From assembly GCA_023150835.1 (NCBI GenBank), contig JAKLKB010000212.1, positions 1-5,826 on the forward strand: a DNA stretch of 5,826 nucleotides, written 5' to 3'. Every line of letters starts with the position of its first letter. Position 1 is the stretch's first letter. Below the pieces are notes generated by a model. It ran no database searches. It was given only the letters and a program-made list of their open reading frames with translations, and was not told the DNA's origin. A program made the position numbers and the translations under genes. The stretch is from Myxococcota bacterium (GTDB lineage: Bacteria > Myxococcota_C > UBA6777). Shown here in pieces: positions 1 through 5,826 of this stretch.

Positions 1-2096
1 CCCTCCCCTTCGAAGAGATCACACCTCATCCCTTTACCATCCCCCCTCAAACTCCCTACCGCATCCATCCCGTCAAAACACCCGCCCCCTTTTACACTCC
101 CTTCCCCAAAACCTCCACCACAACTCCCTCTTCTTCGACCTCTTCGACCTCTTCGGCCTCTTCCACACTTCCTCGTGGTTCCGCATCTTCCGCATCTTCC
201 GCATCTTCTGCATCTTCTGCATCTTCTGCGAGCACACCGCCAGTCTCGACAACAAAAACACCGGTGGCTCCCTTTGATCCGCCTTCTTCGATGCCGAGAC
301 TCCCCAAACAAGGGTCTGTTCTGCCTCTCAGCGCTACGTCTCCCGCCATCCATCGCTCTTTTCGATGGCTTGGTGCGTCAAGCGTATTCCTTTTCTGTTT
401 TGGTCTGGCGCTTTGGTACATCCCTGTGTTTCAAAGCAAGCCCCTCCCAAAGTCGCCCGCACACACAGCGCCCCTTGCCGCCGTTCCTCCACGTGCGCTC
501 TCTGTCTGCCTTCAGTCGCAATCCTATCCCCCTCAAGAACAATGGCTGCGTGGAAGCTGGATCAACGCCCTTCAACAACAACCCCGCGTCATGGCGCGCC
601 TACTCGAACAACCCGCGCTGCGCGAAGATGTGCTTGCACTTCTCCAAAACCATCGCCTGCCCAACGCCATCTCGCGGGCCGCCCCCACACACACGCTTTC
701 TCCCTTTCATCGGGTCATCCGCGCCCGACTGTTCTTGCGGATGGCCCACTTCCACCGCAAAAATTATGACCTCGCCCTCCAATATCACGAGGCCGTCTAC
801 ACCCGCCGCCTTCAACAAGTCCAACCCACCCAACTGGGCCGCTACTTCCATTACTACCTTGGCCGCCTACGCTGTCTCCAAGGACAACGCGAACAAGCCG
901 TCGCCGCCCTCCAAGATGCCCTCCAACAGCCCGATTCACCGCGCAAAGAACGCATCAAAGCGTGGTTGATCGCTTGTCAACCCCAACCCAGCCCCCCCCA
1001 ACAGATCGCCGCCCAACTCGCCAAGCTGGACTTTTCACAAGATCCCGAAGGATGGGCTGAATGGATCTTTTTGCACCACCATCTCGATCTCCCCGCCCAA
1101 ACTTCACCGCATCTCCAAACCCAACGCACGCAACTCTATGCCCGCGTTTGGCAACAGCAACCCGTCCACTGGCCCCACACATGGCAAAGCCACCCCATCG
1201 ATCAAGAAACCATCGAAGAACAAGGTATCCGCTCGACCATCGACTACTACGATCCTGTGGTCTTCTTGGTCATGGCCGACGCTTACGCACAAAACGCGCT
1301 TCGCCTGCTCAAAGACGCCTCAGATCAAGATCGCTATGCTGCATTTTGGCGTGCTCATGCGTTTGATCTCTTGCGAAAACGCTCCCAAGCCTTGGCGCAA
1401 TGGACTCAGTTTCTCGACGCTCCACCCCAACAGATCCAATGGGAATATCTTCTGTTTTCGCACCGCCACACACCCGCATTCTTGCGAGACGAGGCCTGTT
1501 ATCACACAGCCCTCGCTGTCGGCAGCACCAACCCCGATACCGCCCACTCCATCCTTCACCGACTCGCTTATGCGCCCTTCCCTACGCGTGCGCTCGCAGG
1601 ACTCGGTATGTTGCACCTCCGCTATCAAGAACAGGCCGCTTATGACTGGCTTTTGCAAGGCGTTCAATTCGCCGAAAAAGAACGCTCGCGATTGCGCCTT
1701 CGGTTTGAACATGCCGTACAACGGGCCTCTTCCGCCGAAGAAGATCAACAAGCTCGCACACTCCAACAACTTCAACTCGATCACTATGCCGTCGGTTCCC
1801 TTTATGTCTGGGGCAGCATCGGAGCCGTGTTGAAAAAAGAGCCCGCCCTTGCTTCGCGTTGGATGGAACGCTTGCATCACAAAGACGAACCCTACCGATT
1901 GGCGGGACTCAATGAACCCTTGCATTTTGCTTGGACTGCACACACCTACACACACGCCGGAAATCTCGCCGTCGCAACGCTCTTTTTTGCGCAAAACCGC
2001 GAAGCCCATCCCGCCCTCACACAACTTTGGTCGCTCGTTCGCCTCTGGCGCATCTTCGAAGGTATGCAAACGCATCCCACCATCAAAGGCGGATAA
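1..2096 (+). CDS. Single-pass membrane protein with Ser/Thr/Pro-rich linker and C-terminal helical-repeat (TPR-like) domain; 5' end outside the window
   Basis: The frame read from position 3 has no stop until TAA at 2094-2096, giving 697 residues in the window. The first in-frame start codons are GTG 264 and ATG 291. Neither has a Shine-Dalgarno sequence, and the codons before them read as a sensible Pro/Ser/Thr-rich linker, so I place the true start left of the window. In window numbering, residues 1-40 are Pro-rich, 40-77 are SST/SSA repeats, and 123-143 form one hydrophobic segment after basic residues (RSFRW). That predicts a cytoplasmic N-terminus and an exported C-terminus. The rest is Gln-rich and helical, with TPR-like stretches such as YFHYYLGRLRCLQGQ. 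Kinase-linker-TM-TPR proteins of Myxococcota share this layout, but no kinase motif is in the window, so a Hanks-type kinase is only a guess. Repeat copy A follows 40 nt after the stop. Confidence 0.8.
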   Translation, partial: LPFEEITPHPFTIPPQTPYRIHPVKTPAPFYTPFPKTSTTTPSSSTSSTSSASSTLPRGSASSASSASSASSASSASTPPVSTTKTPVAPFDPPSSMPRLPKQGSVLPLSATSPAIHRSFRWLGASSVFLFCFGLALWYIPVFQSKPLPKSPAHTAPLAAVPPRALSVCLQSQSYPPQEQWLRGSWINALQQQPRVMARLLEQPALREDVLALLQNHRLPNAISRAAPTHTLSPFHRVIRARLFLRMAHFHRKNYDLALQYHEAVYTRRLQQVQPTQLGRYFHYYLGRLRCLQGQREQAVAALQDALQQPDSPRKERIKAWLIACQPQPSPPQQIAAQLAKLDFSQDPEGWAEWIFLHHHLDLPAQTSPHLQTQRTQLYARVWQQQPVHWPHTWQSHPIDQETIEEQGIRSTIDYYDPVVFLVMADAYAQNALRLLKDASDQDRYAAFWRAHAFDLLRKRSQALAQWTQFLDAPPQQIQWEYLLFSHRHTPAFLRDEACYHTALAVGSTNPDTAHSILHRLAYAPFPTRALAGLGMLHLRYQEQAAYDWLLQGVQFAEKERSRLRLRFEHAVQRASSAEEDQQARTLQQLQLDHYAVGSLYVWGSIGAVLKKEPALASRWMERLHHKDEPYRLAGLNEPLHFAWTAHTYTHAGNLAVATLFFAQNREAHPALTQLWSLVRLWRIFEGMQTHPTIKGG
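132..227 (+). repeat. In-frame 9-bp tandem repeats encoding Ser-Ser-Thr/Ala
   Basis: Two blocks of 9-mers lie in the linker of the gene above. At 132-167 there are four units of the type tcttcgacc (SST, SST, SSA, SST). At 183-227 there are five units of gcatcttc[c/t], all encoding ASS. A short non-repeat stretch encoding LPRG lies between them. Because the unit is a multiple of three, copy-number change would alter linker length without breaking the frame. The repeat phase matches the reading frame, which supports this stretch being coding. Confidence 0.85.
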
Positions 2097-2135
2097 CGCC
2101 CGATTGACGAGCGATAACATCAACGCATCGAATGG

Positions 2136-2262
2136 TGTTTGTGGGGTTCCACCCCACGCCCCGCAAGGGAGCTTTGCCCCCTTGACCCCGTATTGGCGAA
2201 GCGATCACAGGCTTTTCACACAAACAACACTGTCGCTTGAAAGGCCGCGAACACGGCTTTTC
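2136..2262 (-). repeat. Repeat family copy A (short form, inverted relative to B and C)
   Basis: The reverse complement of this stretch matches the left part of copy B. Shared blocks are aaaagccgtgttc, ttcaagcg, the cgccaa...ggggtcaaggg core, and cccttgcgggg followed by gtgggg. It then jumps straight to ccccacaaacac, the sequence at the right end of copy B. The ~250-bp centre of B is absent and a small hairpin replaces it (gtggggt 2141-2147, accccac 2151-2157). A second hairpin is caaggg 2164-2169 with cccttg 2179-2184. Read on the plus strand, the element begins 40 nt after the stop of the upstream gene and ends with a terminator-like stem. Confidence 0.85.
2240..2261 (+). terminator. Terminator-like hairpin at the end of repeat copy A
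   Basis: aaaggccg (2240-2247) pairs with cggctttt (2254-2261) across a six-base loop. That gives eight pairs, one of them a G-U wobble, and the 3' arm ends in four T. It faces the direction of the upstream gene and lies 58 bp before the next start codon. The T-run is short and part of the stem, so it may be a weak terminator. The same GCCG/CGGC stem recurs at the matching end of copy B with a longer T-run. Confidence 0.45.
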
Positions 2263-2302
2263 TGATAACCACGTCGCTTCTGTCTATCGAACAGATGCGT
2301 TG

Positions 2303-2309
2303 AAGGAGA
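2303..2309 (+). promoter_or_regulatory. Ribosome binding site of the 372-aa gene
   Basis: AAGGAGA lies 10 nt before ATG 2320. This fixes the start of the following gene. No convincing -35/-10 pair is visible in the ~55 bp between the repeat A hairpin and this site. Confidence 0.8.
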
Positions 2310-2319
2310 TGTTTCTGTT

Positions 2320-3438
2320 ATGAGCGAATATCAATATTACGAATTTCGTTGCGTGGATCGCTCCCTAAGCGCCAAGGAACAAAAAGAGATTGCGGAGCTT
2401 TCGAGCCGAGCGGAGGTCAATTCTTCTACAGCTTCATTCGTTTACAGCTACAGCGATTTTCCTGGCGACACAGAGGAACTCATGCTGGAGTATTTCGATA
2501 TGATGCTGTACATGGCCAACTGGGGGTCAAGGGAAGTGATGTTTCGCCTTCCTCGCGAATTCGTCGATACAGAGCAAACGGAGCAGTACTGTGCAGTCGA
2601 AGAAATCGAGCAATCCATCGTTGAGGACTTTGTGTTGATCAAGATCAGTTTTCATGAAGAAGACCAAGGTTCATGGATTGATGGAGAAGGTTGGTTGGAG
2701 CGGATGCTCGATATCCGCCAAGAACTGCTCCAAGGCGATCTTCGGGTGTTGTATTTGGCTTGGCTGAAGGCGACAGGGGAGATCGTCGAGTACGAAAGCC
2801 CTGAAGATGATATGCTCGAACCTCCCGTCCCTGCGGGATTGGGAGAGCTTTCTCCTGCGCTAGAAGCCTTTGTTGAATTTGTGGATCTCGACATGGAATG
2901 GATCGAGGTGGCGGCAAAGAACAGCGAAAAACAGAAGAAAGAAGAACCGCAGCGGTTGGAGAGATGGATCGATCAAATGCCTGAAGCTGAGCAACGAGAT
3001 TTTCTCTTGCGGTTGAGTCGAGGAGAAGCCCATCTTTCGGCGGCCTTCAACAAGCGATTGCGTGCGTATGCCCCCCAAAGCGAGCAGCCCAAACAACCCA
3101 CCCAAAAGAGAAGAACCGTCAGCGAGATCGTCAAAGCCGCCGAGATATGGCGGGAAGAAAAACAAGAGCGAGAGAGACAAGAAAAAAGGCAAGCGCGCAT
3201 TCGAGAGCTAGATGCGTTGGCTGCAAAAGAAAAGAAAGCATGGGAGGAAGTAGACGCATGGATCGAAGAGAAAAAAAGTGCATCTTACGATAAGGCAGTG
3301 GCGCTTTTGCTCGATCTTCGAGATCTCGCTGCACATCGCGGAGATCCAAAAAGTTTCCAAGACCGGCTCGCTGTGATCCTCCAAACCTATCCGACCCGTT
3401 CCGCTCTTTTGAGGCGGATACATGCGGCGAAACTATAG
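2320..3438 (+). CDS. Conserved protein of unknown function, 372 aa (MSEYQYYEF family)
   Basis: A complete gene from ATG 2320 to TAG 3436-3438, with AAGGAGA 10 nt upstream. The N-terminus MSEYQYYEFR...DR and the following FPGDTEELMLEYFDMMLYMANWG block match a family I recall as a conserved hypothetical protein in Myxococcota, Actinomycetota and Cyanobacteria. I know no assigned reaction for it. Residues 1-170 are a mixed, acidic globular part ending in EPPVPAGLGELS. Residues 180-250 are helical. Residues 265-320 are highly charged, with EEKQERERQEKRQ typical of a coiled coil, and a short helical tail follows (LLLDLRDLAAHRG). There is no signal peptide or membrane segment, so it is probably cytoplasmic. 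It stands alone: the gene before ends in a terminator-like repeat and the gene after is convergent. No SWIM zinc-finger gene, a neighbour I vaguely associate with this family, lies in the window. Confidence 0.93.
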   Translation: MSEYQYYEFRCVDRSLSAKEQKEIAELSSRAEVNSSTASFVYSYSDFPGDTEELMLEYFDMMLYMANWGSREVMFRLPREFVDTEQTEQYCAVEEIEQSIVEDFVLIKISFHEEDQGSWIDGEGWLERMLDIRQELLQGDLRVLYLAWLKATGEIVEYESPEDDMLEPPVPAGLGELSPALEAFVEFVDLDMEWIEVAAKNSEKQKKEEPQRLERWIDQMPEAEQRDFLLRLSRGEAHLSAAFNKRLRAYAPQSEQPKQPTQKRRTVSEIVKAAEIWREEKQERERQEKRQARIRELDALAAKEKKAWEEVDAWIEEKKSASYDKAVALLLDLRDLAAHRGDPKSFQDRLAVILQTYPTRSALLRRIHAAKL

Positions 3439-3512
3439 AAGCGCAAAAGTTTCGACGAGAATAAGAGCCATACCGTCGGCCAAGCCCCCGTGATCGGAGT
3501 GGCGTAGTTGCC
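3439..3512. other. Unassigned spacer between the 372-aa gene and repeat copy B
   Basis: About 75 bp between the stop codon and the A-run that starts copy B. I see no open frame with coding character and no clear plus-strand terminator (no stem followed by T), so how the plus-strand gene ends its transcript is not evident. Confidence 0.4.
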
Positions 3513-3537
3513 AAAAAAAGCCGTGTTCTCGGCACTT
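3513..3537 (-). terminator. Terminator-like hairpin with T7 at the end of repeat copy B
   Basis: Read on the minus strand, GCCG (3533-3530), loop AGAACA, CGGC (3523-3520), then seven T (3519-3513). The perfect stem is only four GC pairs. It can be extended by a G-U and two A-U pairs past a bulged T. It is the only stem plus T-run downstream of the minus-strand sigma operon, though nearly 400 nt past its last stop codon, with the rest of copy B in between. It corresponds to the hairpin at 2240-2261 in copy A. Confidence 0.4.
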
Positions 3538-3617
3538 CAAGCGGCAGAGCCGTTGGTTTGAAACACCGTTGTTCTTCCGCCAAATATGGGGTCAAGGGGC
3601 GACAGTCCCTTGCGGGG

Positions 3618-3888
3618 TGTGGGGCGCTGCCCCATAGGCGCCTTGTTAAGGTGGAAACACCGGAGGGTCGAGGATGATCGCCGTTTCCTTTGTCGGCCCC
3701 CCCTCATTCCCCCCGTGAACGGGGGAAGTTGGAGCAGGCAAAGACGCTCTCTCGTGCAAACAGCGTGCGGCATGGAAACCCAAAACCTCGCTGACTCCGA
3801 CTTTCTCTCCCTCCCCTGTTCACGGTCTTTGGCCTCGGTGGGGGGCCGACAAGCGCTTAACCTAACGCCTATGGGGCAGCGCCCCACA
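3618..3888. repeat. Central segment of copy B bounded by a perfect 23-nt inverted repeat (MITE-like)
   Basis: The 23 bases at 3618-3640 are the exact reverse complement of 3866-3888. After four mismatches, GTTAAG 3645-3650 and CTTAAC 3856-3861 pair again. Each arm is itself a small palindrome (GGGGCGCTGCCCC). Nested inside is a perfect 11-nt inverted repeat, 3692-3702 with 3840-3850. Copy A lacks this segment. The centre encodes no protein I can support. The features fit a non-autonomous mobile insert or a large cruciform-forming element, but no target-site duplication was established. Confidence 0.6.
3709..3725. repeat. REP-like palindrome in copy B (C-run, GTGAAC, G-run)
   Basis: CCCCCCGTGAACGGGGG is near-palindromic, with arms CCCCCGT and ACGGGGG about a GA centre. 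Copy C has the same motif at 5699-5716 with symmetric six-base runs. A related motif in opposite orientation, CCCTCCCCTGTTCACGG, lies at 3809-3825, but its right arm has changed to GTCTTT in this copy. Confidence 0.65.
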
Positions 3889-3920
3889 AACACAAAACAA
3901 CTCAGCAAGAGATGCTTGTT

Positions 3921-4340
3921 TTAGTCGGAAGAAACAACCGAGGAAGATTCGGAAGAAGAAGGGAGCTTTTCGAGGATCACAGCGGTTCCATAGGCAAGGA
4001 TCTCTGCGGCTCCGCCCATCAGCATACTTGTGGTGAGATGTGTCCCGATTACAGCGTTTGCGCCGAGTTGAACGGCTTGTTCGACCATCCGATCCAGCGC
4101 TTGTTCGCGGCTTTCGGCCATCAGTTTGGTGTATTCGAGGATCTCTCCGCCTGCGATGTTCCGCAGCACAGCGAGGATATCGACGCCGATATTGCGGGCG
4201 CGGATGGTGTTTCCACGCACAAAGCCGAGGACTTTCTTGATGCGGTAGCCTTCGACGTGTTCGATGGTGGTCAAGAGGAGTTCGTGTCGGAACCCCGTGG
4301 TTGCCCCTGTCTTGGACTTGATCAAGTGTTTTTCTTTCAC
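3921..4340 (-). CDS. YbjQ/UPF0145 (DUF74) family protein, 139 aa
   Basis: The start is GTG 4340-4338, preceded by GGGAGA at a 7-nt spacing and overlapping the TGA of the gene before it (GTGA). The frame is open upstream to 4523, but that part overlaps the preceding gene and lies outside the family. From residue 20 on, the protein shows YbjQ family hallmarks: a VLGFVRGN strand, RARNIGVDILA, the NIAGGEILEY turn, an AESREQALDRMVEQA helix, LGANAVIG, and EILAYGTAV near the end. The family is small and soluble. It is often annotated as heavy-metal-binding, but its function is not well established. A Ser-rich tail (SSSESSSVVSSD) extends past the usual end, and the protein is slightly longer than the ~105-aa E. 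coli YbjQ. It is the last gene of the sigma/anti-sigma operon, so it is probably made with them. Repeat copy B follows directly. Confidence 0.9.
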   Translation of the reverse strand: MKEKHLIKSKTGATTGFRHELLLTTIEHVEGYRIKKVLGFVRGNTIRARNIGVDILAVLRNIAGGEILEYTKLMAESREQALDRMVEQAVQLGANAVIGTHLTTSMLMGGAAEILAYGTAVILEKLPSSSESSSVVSSD

Positions 4341-4780
4341 TGGTCGATCTCCCGATATGGATCGTGTTGCAGACCGCGCACACGAAAAAATAGAACACGC
4401 GCCAACAGCGCAAAGACGCCGATCCCCATCAATCCCACCCCAAGTTTGAGCAACACAGGGACTTTGGGATCGGCCATCAGATGATACCCGCCAAATGCAA
4501 AAAAGATCAGCGCCCCCAAACATAACAACAACAAAGCCACACCGTCAAAGCGTCGGATCGTTGGCGTCGGGCGGATCGGCTCGATCAGAGCCTGCGAGAG
4601 GATGCGCTGGCGAAGACCATCCGTCGATGCCTTGATCGCAAGAAAATCGTCCAACGCGGCCTGTTCTTCGGGATGTTCGAGAAGATAAGCATCCAGTTCT
4701 TTTTGTTCGAGCGCCGATATCCGACCATCCACCGCTTTCATGATCAGTGCTTCATAGTATTCTTGTGTTTGTTTTGTCAT
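4337..4780 (-). CDS. Putative anti-sigma factor-like membrane protein, two TM segments, 147 aa
   Basis: ATG 4780-4778 overlaps the sigma factor stop (ATGA), with a purine-rich AAGAGAG a few nucleotides upstream. Residues 5-60 form a cytoplasmic helical region resembling the N-terminus of anti-sigma factors (MKAVDGRISALEQKELDAYL, then HPEEQAAL). The zinc-binding HxxxCxxC motif of the ZAS class is absent: no cysteines sit at the expected place. Two hydrophobic segments follow at about residues 81-102 and 109-132, joined by a short loop (ADPKVP), and then a short charged tail ends DPYREIDQ. Both ends are predicted cytoplasmic. By family logic and position directly after an ECF sigma gene, it should bind and restrain that sigma factor at the membrane. 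This is inferred from context, because the sequence match is weak. A small membrane protein of other function remains possible. Confidence 0.75.
   Translation of the reverse strand: MTKQTQEYYEALIMKAVDGRISALEQKELDAYLLEHPEEQAALDDFLAIKASTDGLRQRILSQALIEPIRPTPTIRRFDGVALLLLCLGALIFFAFGGYHLMADPKVPVLLKLGVGLMGIGVFALLARVLFFRVRGLQHDPYREIDQ
4348..4353 (-). promoter_or_regulatory. Ribosome binding site that fixes the GTG start of the YbjQ-type gene
   Basis: GGGAGA lies 7 nt before GTG 4340, inside the end of the preceding gene. It favours this start over any codon further upstream in the same open frame, and it fits translational coupling through the GTGA overlap. Confidence 0.75.
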
Positions 4781-5304
4781 GCGTTTTTCTCTCTTCTCAG
4801 GTCATCCAACCGAAACTGCGGATCATGAAGCAGCACTTTGCGCAGCGCCTGACGCGCACGATAAAGCCGACTCATCACCGTCCCCACAGGGCATCCGAGG
4901 ATATCGGCGATCTCCTCGTAGCTGAGATCTTGAAAGTGCCGTAGTTCGAGGATATCGCGCATCTCTTCGGGGAGTTGAGCGATGGCGTGGTTGATCGCGG
5001 TATGTTGTTCGTGTGCAGCCAGACGCGATTCTGCCGAAGAGTCGGAAGAGATCGCTTCGGAGAATTGTTCTTGTGGGGCGTGTTTGCGCTGACGCAGACG
5101 ATCCAAGCAGTGATTTTTGAGGATGCGATAAAACCACGGATAAAAGGGCTGTGCAGGATCATACTTGTGCTGCGCAGCGAAGGCGCGTGCAGCGGCTTCT
5201 TGGCAAGCATCGCGGGATTCTTCGGCATCGCCAAGGATGCGAAATGCCGCGATATAGGCACGTTGCAAAGAAGAAGAGATCGCATGGTAAAGAAAGTCCG
5301 TCAT
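4777..5304 (-). CDS. ECF-type RNA polymerase sigma factor (sigma-70 family), 175 aa
   Basis: Complete from ATG 5304-5302 to TGA 4779-4777. Region 2 spans about residues 10-75: AAFRILGDAEESRDACQEA is the core-binding helix, and YPWFYRILKNHCLDRLRQRK carries the -10 recognition part. An acidic, Ser-rich linker follows (about 76-97). Region 4 is about 100-157, with LPEEMRDILELRHFQDLSYEEIA and then LGCPVGTVMSRLYRARQALR, the helix-turn-helix that contacts the -35 element. There is no region 1.1 or 3, and the length is typical of ECF factors. No good Shine-Dalgarno sequence precedes the ATG (GGCACACCC), which is unusual here. A later TTG at residue 13 has none either and would cut into region 2. It is the first gene of a three-gene overlapping operon, with an anti-sigma-like membrane protein next. 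A hairpin plus U-run sits 24 nt upstream of the start. Confidence 0.95.
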   Translation of the reverse strand: MTDFLYHAISSSLQRAYIAAFRILGDAEESRDACQEAAARAFAAQHKYDPAQPFYPWFYRILKNHCLDRLRQRKHAPQEQFSEAISSDSSAESRLAAHEQHTAINHAIAQLPEEMRDILELRHFQDLSYEEIADILGCPVGTVMSRLYRARQALRKVLLHDPQFRLDDLRREKNA

Positions 5305-5327
5305 GGGTGTGCCGTAGGTGAGGGGTC

Positions 5328-5371
5328 AAAAAAAACCACTTGCTCTTGCTGTACGCACAAAGAAGTGGTTT
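5328..5371 (-). terminator. Hairpin plus U8 in the leader of the sigma operon (terminator or attenuator)
   Basis: On the minus strand, AAACCACTT (5371-5363) pairs with AAGTGGTTT (5341-5333), and the T-run at 5335-5328 follows. Inside, CUUU-UGC pairs with GCAAGAG past one bulged G around a GUACA loop, so the stem is about 16 pairs long. The T-run ends 24 nt before the sigma start codon. No minus-strand gene is visible between here and repeat copy C, so it is either an attenuator of the operon or the terminator of an unseen transcript from the right. Confidence 0.6.
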
Positions 5372-5391
5372 ATTCCTTGCGCGGCCAAAGT

Positions 5392-5413
5392 GACGCACAA
5401 ACGCAGAGGGTTC
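5392..5413 (-). promoter_or_regulatory. Possible ECF-type promoter for the sigma operon
   Basis: On the minus strand, GAAC (5413-5410) and CGTC (5395-5392) resemble the AAC-type -35 and CGTC-type -10 of many ECF-dependent promoters, which would suggest self-activation. The 14-nt spacing is about two short of the usual value, so this is weak. A start site just downstream would place the hairpin at 5328-5371 in the leader RNA. Confidence 0.22.
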
Positions 5414-5415
5414 TC

Positions 5416-5556
5416 ATGCAAAGCAAAGTATGTAGGTTCGGATGGATCGGTCTTGTGGGTATCTTGGCTTGGGCGAGTGGCTGCAAGCGCGGCGGTGAGG
5501 AAGGGTCGATCAACCCCGTGTTTGCGACATTTCAAGCGGCAGAGTCGTCTGTGTGA
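5416..5556 (+). CDS. Possible small lipoprotein, 46 aa, with its 3' end inside repeat copy C
   Basis: ATG 5416 to TGA 5554-5556, with AGAGGG 5 nt upstream. Residues 1-23 look like a lipoprotein signal: a basic start (MQSKVCR), a hydrophobic core (WIGLVGILAWA) and SGC as cleavage site, with Cys 23 as the lipidated residue. Ala at -3 is less common than Leu. Only 23 residues follow (KRGGEEGS...). From about codon 34 on, the DNA is repeat copy C, so the last 13 codons and the stop come from the repeat. The gene may be a truncated remnant of a longer lipoprotein, or the frame may be chance. It is divergent from the sigma operon with 111 bp between start codons. A weak -35/-10 pair (TTGCTG 5346-5351, TTTATT 5369-5374, 17 bp apart) could serve it. 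Confidence 0.4.
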   Translation: MQSKVCRFGWIGLVGILAWASGCKRGGEEGSINPVFATFQAAESSV

Positions 5557-5826
5557 AACACCTGATCACTCCGCCAATACGGGGTCAAGGAGCGACAATC
5601 TATGGTGAGGTATGGGGCGCTGCCCCATACGCGCCTTGTTAAGGTGGAAACCTCGTAGAGTCGGTCTTGATCGCCTTTTTTTTTCTCCCCCCCTCAATCC
5701 CCCCGTGAACGGGGGGAAGTTGGAACGGGCAGCGTCTGCGTCTCGTGCAAACAGCGTGCGTCATGAAAAAACAAAATCCCCGCTGCTTCCGACTTTCGCT
5801 CCCTCCCCTGTTCACGGGGGAGGGCG
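5515..5826 (+). repeat. Repeat family copy C (long form, cut by the window edge)
   Basis: Collinear with copy B from its ccgtgtt start through the GGGGCGCTGCCCC palindrome (5613-5625), the long shared run at 5631-5651, a REP-like palindrome (5699-5716) and the shared run at 5741-5760. It ends with a hairpin (ccctcccc 5801-5808 with ggggaggg 5817-5824) that copy B has lost on one side. The terminator-like stem at the left end is degenerate here and lacks a T-run. The right inverted arm would lie beyond the window. No coding sequence is supported between 5557 and the edge. Confidence 0.88.

Follow-up and report, generated by a model that had tools for sequence, protein, structure and literature searches.

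A MITE-like intergenic repeat of a Myxococcota genome with a conserved hairpin module and a probable role as a terminator

The stretch of DNA analysed here (the window; 5826 bases, the whole of contig C181) contains three copies of a repeat that is a non-autonomous MITE-like transposon: it is short, has terminal inverted repeats and target duplications and is missing from an empty site in a sister species. We propose that the element is mobilized in trans and inserted both ways between genes, and that copies with the T-run end pointing away from the upstream gene (T-forward copies) probably act as terminators or mRNA 3′ ends. Among MITE-like repeats, the element is set apart by its conserved hairpin module and its likely co-option as a terminator. 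The source assembly (G000) comprises 7.56 Mb in 239 contigs and was compared with the genome of a sister species of the same genus (G001).

Copies in the window and the insertion of a second MITE

The features of the window are as follows.

291–2096, plus strand: gene upstream of copy A; its stop is at 2096 and copy A starts 39 nt downstream
2117–2284, plus strand (T-run orientation): copy A, a complete A-type element with degenerate terminal inverted repeats at both ends; core at 2135–2262
2141–2157, no strand assigned: terminal hairpin H4 of copy A, GTGGGGTTCCACCCCAC, read from the sequence; the hairpin is conserved and covarying
2243–2262, plus strand: GCCG/CGGC hairpin and short T-run of copy A, weakly terminator-like in sequence and not called by a consensus terminator scan
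3492–3634, minus strand: copy B, T-run side and A-type core up to H4; core at 3513–3636, with H4 (3620–3634) as the left target copy
3635–3871, no strand assigned: M, a second MITE inside H4 of copy B; 237 bp with inverted ends, delimited by target-duplication analysis and missing at the G001 ortholog
3872–3905, minus strand: right H4 duplicate (3872–3886) and remaining A-type end of copy B
3921–4523, minus strand: YbjQ-family gene upstream of copy B (PF01906, E = 8e-36); its stop is 27 nt before copy B
5512–5627, minus strand: copy C, an A-type element without the left-side A-run and inverted repeat, assigned from its placement and the comparison with G001
5628–5826, no strand assigned: M in copy C, cut by the contig end and continuing in contig C173

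An earlier note on this DNA had described the three copies as homologous, and this is borne out: they are 74–84% identical over their shared parts, and each is among the strong matches of a genome-wide search. The note had also placed copies just after the stop codon of a gene running in the same direction, which agrees with the distances found for copy A (39 nt, plus strand) and copy B (27 nt, minus strand). Read across the contig break into C173, copy C lies ∼40 nt after the stop of a minus-strand gene. Contig C264 of G001 matches the window collinearly as far as copy C (93–95% identity), and the sites of copies A and B are also occupied there (C264:3463–3591 and C264:4841–4969, respectively). 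The N-terminal part of the first gene of the window contains runs of nine-base serine-rich codon repeats at 114–235 (TCTTCCGCA / TCTTCTGCA).

Copies B and C are composites in which M is inserted in the terminal hairpin of an A-type element, and the G001 ortholog of copy B has a single intact H4 hairpin and no M. M is flanked on both sides by the 15-bp hairpin TGGGGYnnnRCCCCA, and the two flanks share 13–15 of 15 bases at most of the 27 M places listed, some of which are single insertions read on both strands. Other G4–C4 palindromes have also been entered by M. The flanking hairpins of copy B (3620–3634 and 3872–3886) are exact reverse complements (TGGGGCGCTGCCCCA / TGGGGCAGCGCCCCA), unlike most other M insertions, where they are direct duplicates, and the left hairpin no longer fits the pairing of columns 101 and 115 described below. 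A further palindromic repeat family (CGTAGGGGCAGCCCCC, beside GATCCGCCCGTTGTG) is also a target of M (G000 C235:15718, C57:9940 and C52:41522). Many contigs (the ends of C11, C12, C21, C30 and C57, and the window at 5800–5826) break at one place inside M, adjoining CCCTCCCCTGTTCACGGGGGAGGGCGGGGTGGGGGG, which resembles a triplex tract of the BoxC/PIT type.

Copy C starts ∼32 codons into a truncated lipoprotein-methyltransferase gene (the start of which occupies 5416–5513; function predicted from the translation). In G001 copy C is missing and an intact lipoprotein-methyltransferase gene stands in its place; the body of this gene was not found in the G000 assembly. Contig C173 shares 104 identical bases with the end of the window and then reaches DNA that lies beside the same gene in G001. 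This overlap, and the fact that C173 goes on into the sequence predicted by the sister genome, disfavour an assembly artefact at copy C, and a real replacement of the gene body in G000 is therefore more likely.

Copy number, anatomy and mobility of the element

With copy B as the query, 62 scored matches were obtained in G000 from 808 first-look candidates, and copy A gave 40 from 719. Among the 40 other genomes searched, the repeat is present in G001 only. A profile search (E < 1e-12) was run on 1.496 Mb of G000 and 0.217 Mb of G001 and detected 133 and 34 A-type cores, respectively. Extrapolation from the sampled G000 DNA (∼20% of the genome, on contigs chosen because they were already known to carry copies) gives ∼670 copies per genome.

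The element is ∼166 bp long (mostly 163–170 bp between the inverted repeats), has no coding capacity and ends in 18-bp terminal inverted repeats. In the orientation opposite to the T-run, referred to here as the A strand, its consensus is ATAGGASTKACGCRGTTG-CC-AAAAAAA-CCCGTGTTCGCG..TTCAAGCGACAGAGTCG..TTTGAAAAAC..TGATCTCTTCGCCAAYACGGGGTCAAGGG..CCCTTGCGGGGTGTGGGG-nnn-CCCCACAAAA..CAACYGCGTMASTCCTAT. Both inverted repeats match at 11 or more of 15 positions in 30 of 117 copies (∼2% per side in shuffled sequences), and the 16-bp end sequence occurs at 225 sites genome-wide compared with three for a reversed-pattern control. The same terminal inverted repeats bound another MITE family of 112 bp with apparent target duplications of 6–7 bp (G000 C70:30546, C113:41470, C193:28772 and others).

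Target duplications are clear in individual copies (C70:34885, C6:15488 and C111). The copy at C70:34885 is flanked on both sides by the 8-bp TTCACACA and is missing from G001, which thus retains a clean empty site; the element at C150:35858 is also missing from G001, less cleanly. At C111 the sequence TGAAAA is duplicated and the element starts 9 nt after a stop codon. The pooled test for target duplications is weak (z ≃ 3.2), so that the length of 6–8 bp is only approximate. The two copies that are both polymorphic between the species and fully readable are T-forward and lie ∼15–25 nt after a stop (stops read by eye). Inverted repeats, target duplications and the empty site together give good support to the suggestion in the earlier note that the repeat is portable.

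The ∼166-bp element would be mobilized in trans by a transposase encoded elsewhere. A search of ∼20% of the genome and of the single ∼2-kb inverted pair listed (C111) revealed no transposase with the inverted repeats of the element; this pair, considered as an autonomous partner, consists of two separate MITEs in which no transposase was recognized. A plasmid origin of the repeat was likewise rejected, a plasmid-origin search with it having given no match.

With its core hairpins, its position between genes and its copy number in the hundreds, the element is reminiscent of REP/BIME elements (GTAG and CGTC families; PMC3733652), high-copy intergenic palindromes that often lie near ORF 3′ ends and show compensatory stem changes. 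This raises the possibility of movement by a RAYT (Y1 HUH) transposase acting on single-stranded hairpins. We regard this as very improbable: inverted repeats and target duplications speak against it, Y1_Tnp gave two weak matches in G000 and none in G001, and no hairpin motif was found near Y1_Tnp loci in other motif-bearing genomes. Mobilization of this kind is not supported by a domain that is weak or missing and unlinked to the motif. Moreover, in contrast to REP/BIME, no GTAG/CGTC tag was seen in the element and no associated RAYT was found, and it is a much longer unit bounded by inverted repeats. In its size class (∼100–200 bp), inverted repeats, intergenic location and structure if transcribed it resembles ERIC/RU-1, Correia and other bacterial MITEs; unlike them, it carries a G-rich hairpin module that recurs across phyla. 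We know of no sequence relation between the element and any of these repeats.

Position relative to genes

A home-made fifth-order Markov model was used to call genes on the sampled contigs, which make up ∼20% of the genome and were selected for carrying copies; it gave 1085 genes and a coding fraction of 83%. The neighbours of 130 copies are arranged as 43 T-forward (both genes running in the direction of the T-run), 29 T-reverse (both running against it), 34 divergent and 24 convergent. The ratio of T-forward to T-reverse copies (43:29) has p = 0.12, and the co-directional, convergent and divergent counts (72/24/34) compare with 72.3/18.6/39.1 expected from intergenic base pairs (p = 0.33). 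The numbers thus reveal no strong bias in orientation or towards gene 3′ ends. The earlier note had anticipated a strong genome-wide excess of copies at same-orientation gene ends and had named random orientation and copies inside genes as evidence against it: orientation is indeed close to random, and none of the 130 copies lies inside a gene (one did in an earlier, smaller run).

The distance to the stop codon differs between the orientations. Among the co-directional copies, the core follows the stop at a median distance of 39 nt when T-forward and 109 nt when T-reverse (p = 2.4e-5), whereas the distance to the next start codon shows no such difference (p = 0.95). Several tests were made on one set of related copies, and the distance asymmetry survives correction for their number. 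The proposal that the repeat is selected at gene ends therefore stands in part: it fails in the choice of orientation and holds in the closer approach of T-forward copies to stops. Terminator-like hairpins are present in the interval from the stop to the distal end of the element for 37 of 64 T-forward and 13 of 42 T-reverse copies, and for 93 of 403 baseline genes. T-runs are of nearly the same length in both orientations (p = 0.058), and fold energies show no difference.

These observations are consistent with insertion between genes in either orientation, after which an element with its T-run end facing away from a gene would probably become the terminator or mRNA 3′ end of that gene. T-forward copies could then persist right behind a stop codon, because there they probably serve this function, while selection would leave copies in the other orientation only further away. 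We give a smaller, though still appreciable, chance to the element being a pure parasite, a MITE without host function that survives where it is least harmful and the 3′-end placement of which simply mirrors intergenic space. Such a parasite would account for category counts that fit intergenic base pairs, for unbiased orientation, for the clean empty site in the sister species and for structure that is no better kept in T-forward copies. It would not be expected to show a stop-side distance that depends strongly on orientation while the start-side distance does not; a strand-blind parasite should yield no such asymmetry unless its T-run end affects transcription.

The closest functional parallel to the element is the pneumococcal SPRITE (PMC3049150), also a small, interspersed, lineage-restricted MITE-like repeat with a terminator-like hairpin and T-rich tract near CDS 3′ ends, where neighbouring repeat families likewise insert into each other. 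SPRITE numbers 30 copies compared with several hundred here, and the element differs further in its 18-bp inverted repeats with target duplications, its multi-helix core and its unrelated sequence and phylum. Unlike repeats of the SPRITE type, it shows no significant enrichment at convergent genes or 3′ ends (p = 0.33), distance alone being asymmetric. Further parallels are found among bacterial MITEs (reviewed in PMC10969869), mobile attenuators (PMC2965389) and REPs (PMC3733652). With hundreds of copies in both orientations and a ∼93%-identical sister genome that retains empty sites, the element constitutes a natural experiment in the change from transposon to terminator, and co-option can therefore be tested copy by copy.

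Structure of the core and a G-rich module shared across phyla

The core combines a long-range stem of 8 bp with two G/C hairpins, and a T-run stands at one end. The earlier note had the repeat end in a GCCG/CGGC stem followed by a T-run. The T-run is conserved across copies; the local stem is only 4 bp, is not conserved and was not called by the consensus terminator scan. The conserved stem is instead the longer-range P1 (columns 7–14 with 70–77), which adjoins the T-run.

Three column pairs covary strongly in 156 distinct copies, with mutual information of 0.67–0.78 compared with a maximum of 0.12 in 2000 shuffles. Columns 113 and 117 (CG/TA) belong to the H4 stem and columns 31 and 65 alternate between AT and GC. 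Columns 101 and 115 (CG in 67 copies, TA in 67 and others in 22) link the base preceding an unpaired GGGG with the central base of the H4 triloop. Each of the three pairs varies independently of the other two, all four combinations of any two being about equally common, which argues against subfamily history; linkage within subfamilies was accordingly rejected as the source of the covariation. The unpaired GGGG itself (columns 102–105) has a conservation of 0.973, as high as that of stems (0.968 and 0.985).

A conserved multi-helix structure with covariation could also indicate a regulatory or processed RNA, in which the transcribed A strand folds into P1/P2/H3/H4 and acts in mRNA stability or as an RNase site, roles of the kind proposed for ERIC, Correia and REP. 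In P1 the G–U wobbles are biased towards the A strand (151:33), as this would predict; those in H3 point the opposite way (33:67) and H4 is neutral (15:13). Since the asymmetry differs between P1 and H3, a single transcribed strand is not indicated, and the helices are too inconsistent for a single-strand RNA function to be read from it. Copies also stand next to genes on both strands. The repeat has no Rfam match at the gathering threshold and no credible match below it, and identity with a known RNA family was rejected on this ground. A regulatory RNA is thus unlikely, and we retain the MITE-like element with probable terminator activity in T-forward copies as the preferred explanation.

A cross-genome search with a pattern covering the latter half of the core found a module, GGGGTC-hairpin-GYGGGGTKTGGGGY-nRn-RCCCCA, in at least six phyla. 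The matches listed include Clostridia, Turicibacter, Desulfovibrio, Synergistaceae, Magnetococcales, Acetobacteraceae, Rhodospirillaceae, Streptomyces, Amycolatopsis and others; among them, the rest of the element is full-length only in three loci of KLAP109 (a Myxococcota MAG). In these other phyla the module has no clear orientation bias relative to genes. No paper describing it was found in the literature searched, coverage of which was partial, and searches by hairpin and inverted-repeat sequence words returned unrelated papers only.

The contact between columns 101 and 115 recurs in the module. C at 101 is accompanied by G at the loop centre in 79 of 81 sites, the C being fixed by the search pattern for nearly all of them. 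For T at 101 the loop centre had been predicted beforehand to be A, and it is A in 22 of 22 sites outside Myxococcota (15 of these genomes searched). The sites are spread over six genera or families belonging to at least four phyla; as some are near-identical copies within one genome, the independent events are fewer than 22.

In the module, a run of G stands where the third strand of a purine-motif triplex would lie, antiparallel to the purines of a G:C hairpin, and shows the conservation (0.973) and loop-crossing covariation described above. The covariation fits, and the geometry suggests, an intrastrand purine triplex (G*G:C, class I order) capped by one Watson–Crick pair. Purine-motif triplexes do not form in RNA (PMC4666352), and a triplex would therefore imply a structure of DNA. 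We tentatively propose, while considering it rather doubtful, that the module as single-stranded DNA may form a compact intrastrand G*G:C triplex in which the base before GGGG pairs with the middle of the triloop, and that this fold may drive spread or persistence in unrelated mobile repeats. In the module, compensatory changes that arose independently provide comparative evidence of a tertiary contact within repeated DNA; for the triplex repeats of PMC4666352 the evidence is a sequence pattern and in vitro work. Those repeats (BoxC/PIT/TM_ECO) are likewise palindromic, made up of G and C, conserved and widespread, with a G-rich tract placed as a third strand next to a G:C stem. Their pattern, CCCTCNCCC-N3-6-GGGNGAGGG-N3-GGGNGAGGG, does not describe the core module, which has the order G-G-C (class I) rather than C-G-G (class II), stems of 4–6 rather than 9 nt and a covarying base that pairs with the hairpin loop. 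The two TM_ECO loop types TTA and CCG (PMC4666352) represent a T–A/C–G switch, as in the module.
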